A program made the position numbers and the translations under genes. From Marinilabiliaceae bacterium JC040 (GTDB lineage: Bacteria > Bacteroidota > Bacteroidia > Bacteroidales > Marinifilaceae), in NCBI GenBank assembly GCA_022496785.1, contig SNAP01000001.1, forward strand, positions 1 to 64,000: a stretch of DNA of 64,000 nt, in the 5' to 3' direction. Below, piece after piece: positions 7,790 to 12,886 of the stretch. Under the pieces are notes generated by a model. That model was given only the letters and a program-made list of their open reading frames with translations, was not told the origin of the DNA and searched no databases. Each line of letters opens with the position of its first letter. The first letter of the stretch is position 1.

Positions 7790-9022
7790 TTATTTCTGCA
7801 TAGCTTTAGTAAGGATAATATCTGTAGCACCAATATTCATTCCAACATATTCAGAAGATTTATCACCAGATTCAGTTCTATACTTTTCATCTTGTATTAA
7901 CTTATTCATTATAGGAAATAATTGAGAATATTCAGAATAAGAAAAAGCAGCCTTAGAATCAATTAAATCGCAAGCTTCCTTAAAACGAGAATAATTAGGA
8001 CCAAAAACAATTGGTAAGCCAAAAGTCGCAGCCTCAAGAGTATTATGAATACCTACACCAAAGCCTCCACCAATATAAGAGATACAAGCATACTGATATA
8101 CAGAAGACAAAATACCGATACAATCTACAATAAGGATTTTAGCATCTTTCAGATTAGCACTATCAGCTTTAGAATACAAAACACACTCATTGTCGAAAAG
8201 CTTCACAATATCGTTGATATGTTTTTTATGCACTTCATGAGGAGCAATAATCCATTTAAAATCATCATTTGAGGACTTAATATATTGAGAAAGGAATTCT
8301 TCATCTTTAGGCCAAGTACTACCACAAACCACAACATTATTTCGACTTTTAAAATCCTCAATAATAGATATTTTTGGAGCAGATTTAGCTATCTCTGCGA
8401 CTCTATCGAAACGAGTATCACCAGCAATAGAGCAATTATTAATACCAATAGAGTTCAATAAAGAAATAGACTCTTTAGTTTGAACAAAAATATGAGTAAA
8501 AGATTTTAGAATATTTTTCCAGAATGCACCATAAAACTTAAAGAATATTTGTTCTTTAAGAAAAATAGAAGAAAAAATAAAAGTCGGAATATCACGTTTT
8601 TTCAATTCTCTTAAAAAGAAATACCAATATTCATACTTAATAAAGAATACCATTTTAGGATTAACAATATCTATAAATCTTTTAGCATTATTAGCTGAAT
8701 CGAGAGGAAGGTAGTAAACTAAATCTACTCCATCGTAATTTTTTCTTACTTCATAACCTGAGGGAGAAAAGAATGTTAATAATAACTTATATTGTGGATA
8801 ATCCTTTCTAATCTTCTCTATAACAGGTCTTCCCTGCTCAAACTCACCTAGAGAAGCAGCATGAATCCATATATAGTTATCAACATTGTTAATATCTTTA
8901 TTTAATCTCTTAAAAAGATCTCTTCTCCCCTCTTTCATTAATTTAGCCTTATTATTGAAAGGGCTAATCATTTTAATAGCCAAAGAGTAGAAAGACATAG
9001 CGAAAGAATATATAATTTTCAT
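7790..9022 (-). CDS. waaA: 3-deoxy-D-manno-octulosonic acid (Kdo) transferase
   Basis: 410 residues, normal for the family. It transfers Kdo from CMP-Kdo to lipid A precursor at the cytoplasmic face of the inner membrane. It shows the N-terminal membrane anchor, the HAASLGEFEQGRP motif with the catalytic Glu, the KYEYWYFFLREL segment, and the C-terminal GT-B donor site (GGGFGVGIHNTLEAATFGLPIVFGP, broken here only by family-typical changes). It is monocistronic, with a minus-strand TATTTTTG box at 9049-9056, and convergent with the TonB-like gene. With lpxK it marks a functional lipid A pathway. Confidence 0.92.
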   Translation of the reverse strand: MKIIYSFAMSFYSLAIKMISPFNNKAKLMKEGRRDLFKRLNKDINNVDNYIWIHAASLGEFEQGRPVIEKIRKDYPQYKLLLTFFSPSGYEVRKNYDGVDLVYYLPLDSANNAKRFIDIVNPKMVFFIKYEYWYFFLRELKKRDIPTFIFSSIFLKEQIFFKFYGAFWKNILKSFTHIFVQTKESISLLNSIGINNCSIAGDTRFDRVAEIAKSAPKISIIEDFKSRNNVVVCGSTWPKDEEFLSQYIKSSNDDFKWIIAPHEVHKKHINDIVKLFDNECVLYSKADSANLKDAKILIVDCIGILSSVYQYACISYIGGGFGVGIHNTLEAATFGLPIVFGPNYSRFKEACDLIDSKAAFSYSEYSQLFPIMNKLIQDEKYRTESGDKSSEYVGMNIGATDIILTKAMQK

Positions 9023-9087
9023 AATTGATCTATTTAGTATTTGAGGTACAAAAATATCTATAAATTAGTGATATTAAAAAAAATAAC

Positions 9088-9095
9088 TAAATTTG
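9088..9095 (+). promoter_or_regulatory. metK promoter (-7 box)
   Basis: TAAATTTG matches TAnnTTTG; the -33 position holds TTAG (9065-9068), a partial match. The predicted transcription start is near 9101, immediately before the first paired base of the SAM-II-like aptamer. Confidence 0.55.
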
Positions 9096-9102
9096 TGGCG
9101 AT

Positions 9103-9155
9103 TGAGGAAAGGATTTGGCTGCTTGCAACCTCAGAAAAAAAATGCTAAAATGCAT
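9103..9155 (+). ncRNA. SAM-II-like riboswitch in the metK leader
   Basis: The sequence holds the SAM-II core in order: P1 5' arm UGAGG (9103-9107), GGAUUUGG (9111-9118), UUGCA (9123-9127), P1 3' arm CCUCA (9129-9133), an A-rich stretch, then UGCUAAAA (9143-9150). The pseudoknot can form: AUUU (9113-9116) with AAAU (9140-9143), and UGC (9120-9122) with GCA (9152-9154). SAM-II aptamers are H-type pseudoknots of about 52 nt that bind S-adenosylmethionine and repress methionine/SAM genes. The element starts where the predicted transcript starts and precedes metK, whose product makes SAM. P1 has an extra AAAG on its 5' side compared with the textbook form. The aptamer ends about 65 nt before the ATG, farther than in many SAM-II leaders. 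Confidence 0.8.
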
Positions 9156-9219
9156 ATTTCTGTCTAACAACGACCAACACTTTCCCGTACATTTTTTTAC
9201 GAACAAAAAGAGAAAAATT

Positions 9220-10503
9220 ATGGGATATTTATTTACATCCGAGTCAGTATCTGAAGGCCATCCAGATAAAGTAGCTGACCAAATATCAGACGCAATTTTA
9301 GATCAAATTTTAGCTTACGATTCAGAAGCTAAAGTGGCATGTGAAACATTAGTAACAACAGGACAAGCTATAATTGCAGGAGAGATAAAAACAAAAGCAT
9401 ATGTAGATGTTCAACACATATCGCGAGACACAATCAACGAAATAGGTTATACAAAGAGTGAATACATGTTTGATGGTAATTCATGTGGAGTATTAAATGC
9501 ACTTCATGAACAATCACCAGATATTAACAGAGGAGTAGAAAGAGAAGATCCTATGTCTCAAGGAGCAGGAGATCAAGGAATGATGTTTGGATATGCAACA
9601 AATGAAACAGATAGTTACATGCCATTATCACTTGAATTATCGCATATATTATTAATGGATTTAGCAAAAATCAGAAAAGAAGGTACAATTATGAAGTATC
9701 TTCGTCCAGATTCTAAATCACAAGTAACAATAGAATACGATAATAATAATAAACCTGTAAGAATTGATACAATAGTAATATCAACTCAACATGATGATTT
9801 TATAAAAGCTAGCGATGAAAAAAGTCAAGAAGAAGCTGACAAAGAAATGGTAGCCCAAATAAAAGCAGATATAATTGAGCACTTATTACCTCTATCAAAA
9901 TCGAGATGTATAGAAGATGTACAGAAATTATTCACATCAGATATTAAACTATTTGTAAATCCAACAGGTAAATTCGTAATTGGAGGTCCACATGGAGACA
10001 CAGGTTTAACAGGAAGAAAGATAATTGTAGATACATACGGAGGAAAAGGAGCTCACGGAGGAGGAGCTTTTTCAGGTAAAGATCCATCGAAAGTAGACAG
10101 ATCTGCAGCTTATGCATCAAGACATATAGCCAAGAATCTTGTAGCAGCAGGAGCTGCAGATGAGATATTAGTTCAATTATCATATGCAATAGGTATAGCA
10201 GAACCTGTAGGTATATATGTAAACACATACGGAACCAACAAGACTAAATATACAGATGGTGAATTAGCTGAATTAATATCAGAGATATTTGATTTACGTC
10301 CTAAAGCAATTGAAGAAAGATTAAAATTAAGAAACCCAATCTACAAAGAGACAGCCGCATACGGCCATATGGGAAGAGATTATAGAAAAGTGAAGAAGCA
10401 ATTTAATTCTCAATATATGGGAGAAAAAGAAATTGAAGTAGAATTATTCACATGGGAGAAACTTGATTTTGTAGAGATATTAAAAGAGAAATTAAATTTA
10501 TAA
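9220..10503 (+). CDS. metK: S-adenosylmethionine synthase
   Basis: About 427 residues. It makes SAM from methionine and ATP, with release of phosphate and pyrophosphate. Family motifs are present: [17 protein letters not shown] at the N-terminus (catalytic His in GHPD), the [12 protein letters not shown] hexapeptide region, and the [18 protein letters not shown] loop near residues 285-305. The ATG at 9220 is chosen because [13 protein letters not shown] is the conserved start; the ATG at 9115 lies inside the riboswitch aptamer. A small zinc-ribbon gene follows after 25 bp and may share the transcript. Feedback control by SAM through the leader is inferred. Confidence 0.95.
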
Positions 10504-10528
10504 CCCCAAACCCATAAAATCATAATTT

Positions 10529-10864
10529 ATGAGCGAAGAAAATCCAAAATGTCCAGAATGTGGAACGACAAATAACTATTTTGACGGATCATTAAATGTA
10601 TGCATGGACTGTTATCATGAATGGACAGAAGAGGAAGCATCATCAGCAGCAGAGAAATCAATTTGTAAAGATTCTAATGGAGTAGAATTAGAAGATGGAG
10701 ATGCTGTTACTGTAATAAAAGACCTTAAAGTAAAAGGTTCTTCAATGGTAATAAAAAGAGGAACAAAAGTAAAAAGTATAAAACTAACAGAAGATCCAGA
10801 ATTAGTAGATTGTAAAATTGGAGGATCTGGAATTGTTTTAAAGACTTGTTTCTTAAAAAAATAA
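10529..10864 (+). CDS. yjdM: YjdM/PhnA-type zinc-ribbon protein
   Basis: 111 residues. An N-terminal zinc ribbon (CPECGTTN ... CMDCYHEW, residues about 8-33) is joined to an SH3-like PhnA domain (DSNGVELEDGDAVTVIKDLKVKGSS, ending in GIVLKTCFLKK). The family was once called alkylphosphonate utilisation protein PhnA, but no phosphonate genes are nearby and its true role is unclear. It is 25 bp downstream of metK and followed by a strong terminator. Confidence 0.88.
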   Translation: MSEENPKCPECGTTNNYFDGSLNVCMDCYHEWTEEEASSAAEKSICKDSNGVELEDGDAVTVIKDLKVKGSSMVIKRGTKVKSIKLTEDPELVDCKIGGSGIVLKTCFLKK

Positions 10865-10887
10865 CATAACAACACATTAATTACTTG

Positions 10888-10915
10888 AAAGCCACCTCAT
10901 TTTGGGGTGGCTTTT
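10888..10915 (+). terminator. Terminator after metK-yjdM
   Basis: A 9-bp perfect stem (AAAGCCACC / GGTGGCTTT) with a 9-nt loop and a T run. It ends the metK-yjdM unit before the histidine kinase gene. Confidence 0.85.
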
Positions 10916-10966
10916 GCTATAATAATTTGTATATTTACATGCTAAGACACTAACTAATAAATATCT

Positions 10967-12886
10967 ATGCTTAAATTATACTTATTAATAATAGCCCTTT
11001 CTATCTTTCCTATTGATAAGAACTACGGACAAGAGAAAGATATAGAGAAATATATAAACAAGATAAAGAGGTATCAGAAAGATAGTTCTGTGGTTAAATT
11101 GTGTGATACTTTATTCTATATAAGTGAAAAGAATAAAAGATATTCACAGGCAAGTTATGCATTAACAAAAAAGATATTGTACTACTGTATGACATCTAAG
11201 ATTATAGATTCAGTTGAGAAATATAAAGATGAATGCATAAAATACACGAATAAGCATGGTTTATATAGAGACAAATACTACGCTTGGAATTTATATATCA
11301 TGAAAATGATAAAGCTATATAAGCATAAAGAAAGCATAATAGAGACTCAGAATATGCTTACATCAGCAAAACTTGATAATTATAAAATAGGTATAGTATA
11401 TGCATATAAAAATTTAGCACATATATATGAACTAGAAGGAGAAAGAGAAGTCTCGTTAAACTATATAAAAAAGGCTATAAGCTATATAGAAGAAAAAAAT
11501 ATAAAATTCAAATCTACCTACAGTCTCTACGGTTTTTATATAGGAAAACTATTATCAAACAATAGACTTTTATTAGCAAAAGAAGAGATAGAGAAATCAA
11601 AAATCTACATAAAATCGAAAAAAGATAGAAATATCTATTTAAAGAATCTTGTAAAACTACACATAAAAGAAAAGGATTTAGAAAAAGCTAAATATTATTT
11701 GAATAAGCTAGATTCAATAAATTGGAAAAATACATACTACACAAAATCCCTAAAATATGTTTATTACTTAGAGAAATATACCATAGAAAAGGAGTATGAT
11801 AAATTAATAGAATTATCAAAGAGTAGTAAATTTCTTAATAATAGTATAGGGAATAAATTAGTAAAATATGAGAATCTAGCAATAGCATATTCTTTAAAAG
11901 AGAAAGCTAAAAATACTAGACAACAGTATGAAAACTTATTATTATTTAAAGATTCAGTAAATAGGGATAAACAAACTAAGGAAATAAATAAATTATCAAC
12001 ACAATTGGGTTTAACTCATGAACAATTTAAGAATCAACAATTAGAAACTGAAAAGCATAAATTATCAATCAAGATATTATTAATAATCTCAGTGTCAATC
12101 TTTTTGATACTACTATTAATGATATACATCTATATAAAAATAAGAAGACAAGCGAAACTAGAGAGGAATTTAAATTATAAACTAAAACAAGCGAACGCTA
12201 AAATTATAAACGAACATATAGTAGAACAATCGTTCTTTAGAAAAGTAAATCATGAATTAAGAACACCTTTAAATTCTATACTTGGATTTAGTGATATAAT
12301 TTATGAGAAGTATAAAGATAATCCTGAGACTAAGAAATTTGTTGATATAATAAGAAGGAATTCAGAACTTTTAGCCACATTAATAGAAAACTCATTAACA
12401 GTTTCAGAGATATCAGACAATAAAGATATTGAAAAAGAGGATAAAATATCTATTAATTCATTTTGTCAAGAGATTGTTGATAAAATAAGTCATAAATGTC
12501 CAGAAAGAGTAGATATTATAATCTATCCAATTGCTCACGACGCTAAAATTATAACATATAGCAATGCAATAGAAGAGATATTAAATAACCTATTAGACAA
12601 TGCATTTAAATTCACAAAAAAAGGTAATGTAAAGATTAAATATAAACTTCATAGAAATAATATCAAATTCACGGTATCTGATACAGGTATAGGAATAGAG
12701 AAGAAAAATAATCCTTTTGAGAATTTTTATAAAACCGACATATTTAGTCCTGGCTTAGGAATAGGCTTAAGTATATGTCAAATGGCAATAATAAAAGTAA
12801 ATGGTTCCATTTCTATAGATAAAAAATATACAAACGGAACCAAAATACATTTTTCTATACCATATAAGAAAGTAATAGAAGATTAA
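10967..12886 (+). CDS. TPR-type membrane sensor histidine kinase
   Basis: 639 residues. A signal sequence (ending near SIFPIDKNYGQ) leads into a periplasmic helical region of TPR-like repeats (about 25-340). One membrane helix follows (about 364-390), then a short coiled coil, an H-box with phospho-acceptor His429 (VNHELRTPLN), and an HATPase domain with N box (NNLLDNAFKF), G1 (SDTGIGIE) and G2 (GLGIGLS). There is no receiver or DNA-binding domain and no response regulator gene within the window, so it is an orphan kinase. The signal sensed is unknown. The stop codon interlocks with that of the convergent zinc peptidase gene. Confidence 0.88.
   Translation: MLKLYLLIIALSIFPIDKNYGQEKDIEKYINKIKRYQKDSSVVKLCDTLFYISEKNKRYSQASYALTKKILYYCMTSKIIDSVEKYKDECIKYTNKHGLYRDKYYAWNLYIMKMIKLYKHKESIIETQNMLTSAKLDNYKIGIVYAYKNLAHIYELEGEREVSLNYIKKAISYIEEKNIKFKSTYSLYGFYIGKLLSNNRLLLAKEEIEKSKIYIKSKKDRNIYLKNLVKLHIKEKDLEKAKYYLNKLDSINWKNTYYTKSLKYVYYLEKYTIEKEYDKLIELSKSSKFLNNSIGNKLVKYENLAIAYSLKEKAKNTRQQYENLLLFKDSVNRDKQTKEINKLSTQLGLTHEQFKNQQLETEKHKLSIKILLIISVSIFLILLLMIYIYIKIRRQAKLERNLNYKLKQANAKIINEHIVEQSFFRKVNHELRTPLNSILGFSDIIYEKYKDNPETKKFVDIIRRNSELLATLIENSLTVSEISDNKDIEKEDKISINSFCQEIVDKISHKCPERVDIIIYPIAHDAKIITYSNAIEEILNNLLDNAFKFTKKGNVKIKYKLHRNNIKFTVSDTGIGIEKKNNPFENFYKTDIFSPGLGIGLSICQMAIIKVNGSISIDKKYTNGTKIHFSIPYKKVIED

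Follow-up and report, generated by a model that had tools for sequence, protein, structure and literature searches.

A few members of the SAM-II class were noted in the Bacteroides group in 2005 (Corbino et al., PMC1273637), and a variant with long loops was listed in 2010 as 'Bacteroidetes, marine' (Weinberg et al., Table 1, PMC2864571). The aptamer described here, located upstream of metK in Marinilabiliaceae bacterium JC040, is therefore not of a new class, and these reports agree with the statement in a first-pass annotation of the locus that SAM-II occurs in Bacteroidetes. The textbook translational riboswitch hides a Shine–Dalgarno sequence, a signal that Bacteroidota do not use. Bacteroidetes are reported to be without Shine–Dalgarno sequences, with mRNA structure tuning initiation (PMC6847099, PMC9976891). 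This makes a lock on the start codon plausible, and such a lock would be a concrete alternative. The reading that we favour, with a probability of around 0.55, is that the metK leader contains a SAM-II OFF switch whose target in translation is the start codon itself. Such an expression platform is apparently undescribed in the main texts of the open-access literature.

The whole stretch of 64,000 nucleotides that was analysed is termed the window. In a search of the window with Rfam covariance models the sole match at the gathering level was to RF01726 (SAM-II long loop), at 9098–9158 of the forward strand. Its score is 58.7 bits (E = 1e-8), where the gathering level lies at 44, and the alignment covers 60 of the 60 model positions. 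There is no further RF01726 match in the genome assembly (117 contigs, 95.66% complete). Neither RF00521 (SAM_alpha) nor SAM-V gave a row within 8000–11000 up to E = 10. The first-pass annotation had placed a SAM-II-class riboswitch before metK and proposed a covariance-model search as a check, and it is RF01726 that provides the match. The 3′ end of the aptamer is separated by 61 nt from the start of metK (9220–10503, forward strand), an open reading frame encoding a methionine adenosyltransferase of 427 amino acids (TIGR01034, 515.1 bits, cutoff 309.4), so that the aptamer precedes a methionine/SAM gene. The long gap had been taken as a departure from the textbook layout, but gaps of this kind are common in the relatives.

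The covariance-model alignment places the 5′ strand of P1 (UGAGG) at 9103–9107 and the 3′ strand (CCUCA) at 9129–9133, both on the forward strand. GAUUU (9112–9116), UUGCA (9123–9127) and GCUAAAA (9144–9150) are found with the P1 arms in the SAM-II order originally claimed. P1 covaries, for which an alignment of related leaders had been proposed as a check. The GAGG/CCUC of the window is replaced by GUGG/CCAC in 46 of the 47 analysed family leaders, a change on both sides that preserves pairing. Pairing is also maintained in the variants AUGG/CCAU (four) and GCGG/CCGC (two) among 98 order leaders, and GAGG/CCUC itself is present in 18 of 50 named leaders. The fifth pair of P1 is not conserved in the leader comparison. 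Bases complementary for the P2 pseudoknot exist in the window, yet the two helices proposed in the first-pass annotation (AUUU/AAAU and UGC/GCA) both use U9143, and as written cannot both be complete; the Rfam model holds no pseudoknot. What had been called an AAAG insertion on the 5′ side of P1 is really one extra base. Between P1 and GAUUU, 191 of 195 leaders have a spacer of 3 nt; in the window, as in one further leader, it measures 4 nt. At the level of sequence, the assignment of 9098–9158 as an aptamer of the known SAM-II class is confirmed.

TAnnTTTG is the consensus of the Bacteroidota-type promoter box. The putative −7 box of the window, TAAATTTG (9088–9095, forward strand), lies just before the aptamer as had been proposed. 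The consensus recurs in 31 of 47 family leaders, 81 of 98 order leaders and 47 of 50 named leaders, in each case no more than 45 nt upstream of P1; it is absent from the first 47 coding bases in each of the three sets, which served as a control. The divergent upstream neighbour is probably a gene for a lipid IV(A) Kdo transferase, with a score under the curated cutoff. Downstream of a phnA/yjdM-like gene, a strong inverted repeat AAAGCCACCTCA/TGGGGTGGCTTTT at 10888–10916 coincides with a sub-threshold RefA9 match and is probably a terminator.

Of the genomes surveyed, RF01726 is carried by 53 of 56 in the family, 102 of 159 in the order and 15 of 118 in the phylum. The three family genomes lacking it are G023 (81% completeness), G031 (1180 contigs) and G032 (63%). 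There were 232 loci with metK, in 197 of which the aptamer was located by pattern. Of these 195 were kept (L231 and L069 dropped out when the aptamers were relocated) and 194 tested, comprising 47 family, 97 order and 50 named leaders; L199, with a leader of 7 nt, was left out, as was the order genome G131 with its match at a contig edge. Kinship limits the independence of these genomes: those of the family fall into 17 genera, and the sampling of the order was even among its families. Six family loci (L128–L133, aptamer core GCGACC) fell outside the pattern and were examined apart, but are included in the count of 53 leaders for start pairing given below. In these UUGCGACC replaces the usual aptamer core UUGCAACC, and L133 belongs to a different genus from the other five. 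Among the named loci, 29 had no located aptamer; an Rfam scan of 20 of these gave no match at the gathering level. In five Flavobacteriia leaders (L076, L087, L099, L102 and L106) the aptamer has an extra hairpin-like insert between the 3′ strand of P1 and GCUAAA, a type also visible as long matches of 80–108 nt in the phylum survey. Two second matches to RF01726 (L164 and L234) precede DNA other than metK. That at L164 (G138:C269:1340-2300) is followed by a metH-like gene (NCBIfam methionine synthase, partial) and has a similar strand downstream; the same genome also has a SAM-II aptamer before metK (L169).

The proposed mechanism begins with the aptamer, for which the covariance model and the covariation of P1 provide the backing. 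Without SAM, the newly transcribed segment 9168–9185 would invade the aptamer, with GGAAAG (9106–9111) pairing with CUUUCC (9180–9185), both on the forward strand. Nucleotides 9106–9185 would then form a long rod ahead of transcription of the start codon, and the strand would be kept from the AUG. This step comes from computation and is supported by comparison across the order. When SAM locks the aptamer the strand would be free, and UCCCGUA (9183–9189) together with a U-run could pair with UAUGGGA (9219–9225), burying the AUG; this step too is computed, and comparison supports it in this family alone. 30S subunits would then be prevented from initiating, and MetK synthesis would drop when SAM is plentiful. 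As in the earlier interpretation of the locus, we infer that SAM represses metK here.

The refolding is seen in folds of the growing transcript. With the transcript extended to 9160 the predicted probability of P1 is 0.97. On reaching 9186, with the AUG still 34 nt ahead, it falls to 0.00 while that of the GGAAAG:CUUUCC helix is 1.00, and 9106–9185 becomes one rod. GGAAAG would thus belong to P1/J1 in the bound state and partner the anti-aptamer strand in the ligand-free fold of 9098–9186. In the ligand-free model of the full-length leader the anti helix has a probability of only 0.36, with the AUG open at 0.096, values so low that the ON state would have to be trapped kinetically. Neither the pseudoknot nor SAM nor the ribosome enters the fold model. 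The ensemble of aptamer plus leader (minus the last 20 nt) of the window has z = −3.98 relative to shuffled leaders, with none of 1000 as good. The corresponding mean z is −2.31 in the order (63 of 97 leaders below −1.64), −2.22 in the named set (30 of 50) and −1.66 in the family (26 of 47). In the order leaders the probability of P1 declines from 0.187 to 0.024 in the folds of aptamer plus leader. The consensus fold of the family alignment, the leader portion of which is heavily gapped, comprises P1 and small hairpins with no rod.

Most family leaders have a block CUUUCC(C/U)(G/A)UA downstream of the aptamer, the CUUUCC of which complements the GGAAAG of the aptamer. Leaders of other families have their complementary strand opposite different aptamer positions, and it tracks the variable letters, as in the aptamer/leader pairs GGATGGATTTGG/CCAAATCCATCC (L177), GGAAGGATTTGA/TCAAATCCTTCC (L080), TGTACTGATTGC/GCAATCAGTGCA (L096) and GATTTGTGA/TCACAAATC (L055). 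Duplexes between the 5′ half of the aptamer and the leader were compared with those formed by dinucleotide-shuffled leaders. The mean z is −1.69 for the order, with 40 of 97 leaders at p < 0.05 and 57 failing that threshold, and −1.71 for the named set, with 24 of 50. Controls gave values closer to zero. For the reversed aptamer z is −0.23 in the order (11 leaders at p < 0.05) and −0.11 in the named set (two), and for the upstream flank, the 3′ half and later coding DNA it is −0.15, −0.42 and −0.42 respectively. The same test is weak in the family (mean z −0.70, five of 47), and for the window alone p = 0.13.

When own leaders were compared with foreign ones, none of 5000 permutations was as strong (z = −9.9 for the order and −7.0 for the named set). 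With the reversed aptamer the permutation control gave z = −2.7 in the order (25 of 5000), which is not zero, and −0.7 in the named set. The swap rank was 0.299 against an expected 0.5 (se 0.027, n = 94). The longest Watson–Crick run exhibits a smaller excess of own over permuted leaders, 6.19 against 5.81 in the order (two of 5000) and 7.08 against 6.19 in the named set (none of 5000). Within the family the permutation gives z = −0.2; the pairing there is nearly invariant, and the test is thus uninformative. Taken as a comparison of sequences, the existence of an expression platform is well supported, and it bears out the earlier suspicion that the output mechanism may differ from the textbook one.

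In the window UCCCGUA is complementary to UAUGGGA around the metK start, both on the forward strand. The hairpin 9183–9225 has a calculated free energy of −10.8 kcal/mol, and a U-run and an A-run lengthen the helix. With the strand free the predicted openness of the AUG is no greater than 0.004, rising to 0.11–0.25 on masking 9174–9185 and to 0.29–0.66 on masking 9174–9189. When P1 is forced it is 0.001–0.005, and when the anti helix is forced 0.12–0.37. In a context of −70 to +45 the metK AUG has an openness of 0.003, lower than at any of the 48 ATG starts called mechanically in the window (minimum 0.014), a list that enters metK at its first in-frame ATG, 9142.

Within the family UCCYRUA is fully complementary (seven of seven pairs) to the start UAUGGGA in 38 of 53 leaders, representing 12 of 17 genera, even though as many as 162 nt may separate the strand from the AUG; 15 of the 53 lack full complementarity. 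Where the strand varies the pairing is mostly retained, with C or U opposite G in 47 of 50 leaders and G or A opposite U in 43 of 50, and in two genomes of genus g7 a U-A pair takes the place of A-U at position 7. Three of the four scored leaders of this genus miss the start pairing though UCCC is kept, and two have AUGAGU starts. The mean openness of the AUG in the family is 0.20; shuffling the leader raises it to 0.39 and masking the motif to 0.57. Burial of the start reaches p ≤ 0.05 in 18 of 47 leaders, from seven of 16 genera, and misses it in 29. Masking the anti-strand opens the family starts beyond the effect of random masks by 0.103 (se 0.021, n = 47). Burial of the start as the output is thus moderately supported, for this family alone.

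Start-codon pairing as a general output of the order was considered and rejected. The signal is absent in both the order (z = −0.37, coding control −0.42) and the named set (0.03), and the mask test shows no clear effect (0.017, se 0.011, n = 95 and 0.000, se 0.013, n = 50 respectively). In order leaders cut at 110 nt the openness test gave 11 of 97 at p ≤ 0.05, the cut dropping the motif in long leaders. A broader proposal, for which we judge the chances to be even, is that Bacteroidota SAM-II riboswitches share an undescribed platform in which a strand tracks the variable letters of the 5′ half of the aptamer and refolds it into a rod without SAM. The task of the freed strand would then be lineage-specific, providing a lock on the start codon in the family of the window, loading of Rho elsewhere, and rarely one arm of a terminator.

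Rho might alternatively account for the window itself. The SAM-bound aptamer would expose a C-rich, G-poor strand for Rho-dependent attenuation, the anti-aptamer rod would hide that strand without SAM, and the start pairing would be a family-specific extra. The order leaders are indeed C-rich and G-poor (about 25% C and 12% G) up to about −32, after which they are AU-rich. UCCC occurs in 55 of 97 order leaders, counted over the whole leader, against four of 26 metK leaders in which no SAM-II was located and 75 nt were counted, and it is retained where the start is not AUGGGA. The frequency of UCCC and the C-richness of the leaders make Rho the best of the rival explanations, and it fits also the lineages without visible start pairing. 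However, the C-richness is partly imposed by complementarity to the G-rich strand of the aptamer, and Rho leaves unexplained the extension of UCCYRUA past CUUUCC that matches the start in the 38 family leaders. We regard it as unlikely. UCCC is frequent at about −30 to −40 from the metK ATG in order leaders, even where the anti-strand has a different register.

Less probable still is regulation by the aptamer alone, by steric block or by control of mRNA stability, leaving the downstream complementarity idle. Joint effects on stability and translation at a distance have been reported for the SAM-II riboswitch of Sinorhizobium meliloti metA (PMC9373788), but such regulation neither needs nor explains a strand beyond the aptamer whose sequence follows the aptamer's variable letters. 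An intrinsic terminator, its 5′ arm formed by the anti-aptamer strand, would be the classical attenuator reported for many proteobacterial SAM-II riboswitches, and hairpins with U-runs are found in a few relatives (L175, L214, L225 and L051). A scan for GC-rich hairpins followed by a U-run revealed no terminator-like site within 8900–9400 of the window, and only five in 97 order, one in 47 family and three in 50 named leaders, compared with zero to three per set in shuffles. Given this rarity in the relatives and absence from that region we rejected the terminator as the output, and think it very improbable. By eye, and outside the list from the scan, L188 has a real-looking terminator between the aptamer and metK, the 5′ arm of which is the anti-aptamer strand. 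Translation of metK from the AUG at 9142 within the aptamer, with the pseudoknot hiding the start directly, is the most improbable and was also rejected, because although this AUG is in frame with metK and open in the window, the reading frame is not conserved (of 152 leaders with an AUG at this position 59 are in frame and only eight in frame and open) and homology to MetK begins at 9220.

For the start-codon lock, a single short strand complementary to both aptamer and start codon would offer an answer, testable by mutation, for an important gene. Burial of the start codon by a released RNA strand would be a little-described route to the OFF state, and one suited to bacteria without the usual ribosome-binding signal. 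The sliding of the anti-aptamer register between families suggests that the expression platform can change under a fixed aptamer.

Comparison may be made with four described systems. The window aptamer shares its family and phylum with the RF01726 examples of Weinberg et al. (2010, PMC2864571) and scores above the cutoff for that family. It has one extra base in the spacer, and the main text of that paper apparently describes no expression platform. With the alphaproteobacterial SAM-II riboswitches of RF00521 (PMC1273637, PMC2258182) it shares the position of the aptamer before methionine/SAM genes and the proposed OFF switch. Those are reported to be most often tied to intrinsic terminators, whereas none was seen in the window within 8900–9400. 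SAM-V, reported from marine alphaproteobacteria and Bacteroidetes (PMC6061858), has a similar pseudoknot and is also described as a translational OFF switch, but is reported to hide the Shine–Dalgarno sequence in helix P2a, and positions 8000–11000 of the window give no SAM-V row up to E = 10. The SAM-II riboswitch of S. meliloti metA (PMC9373788) shares with the present proposal translation as the target and a used start codon that lies downstream of the aptamer. In that case SAM is reported to sequester the Shine–Dalgarno sequence within the riboswitch, whereas in the window the proposed target is the start codon.
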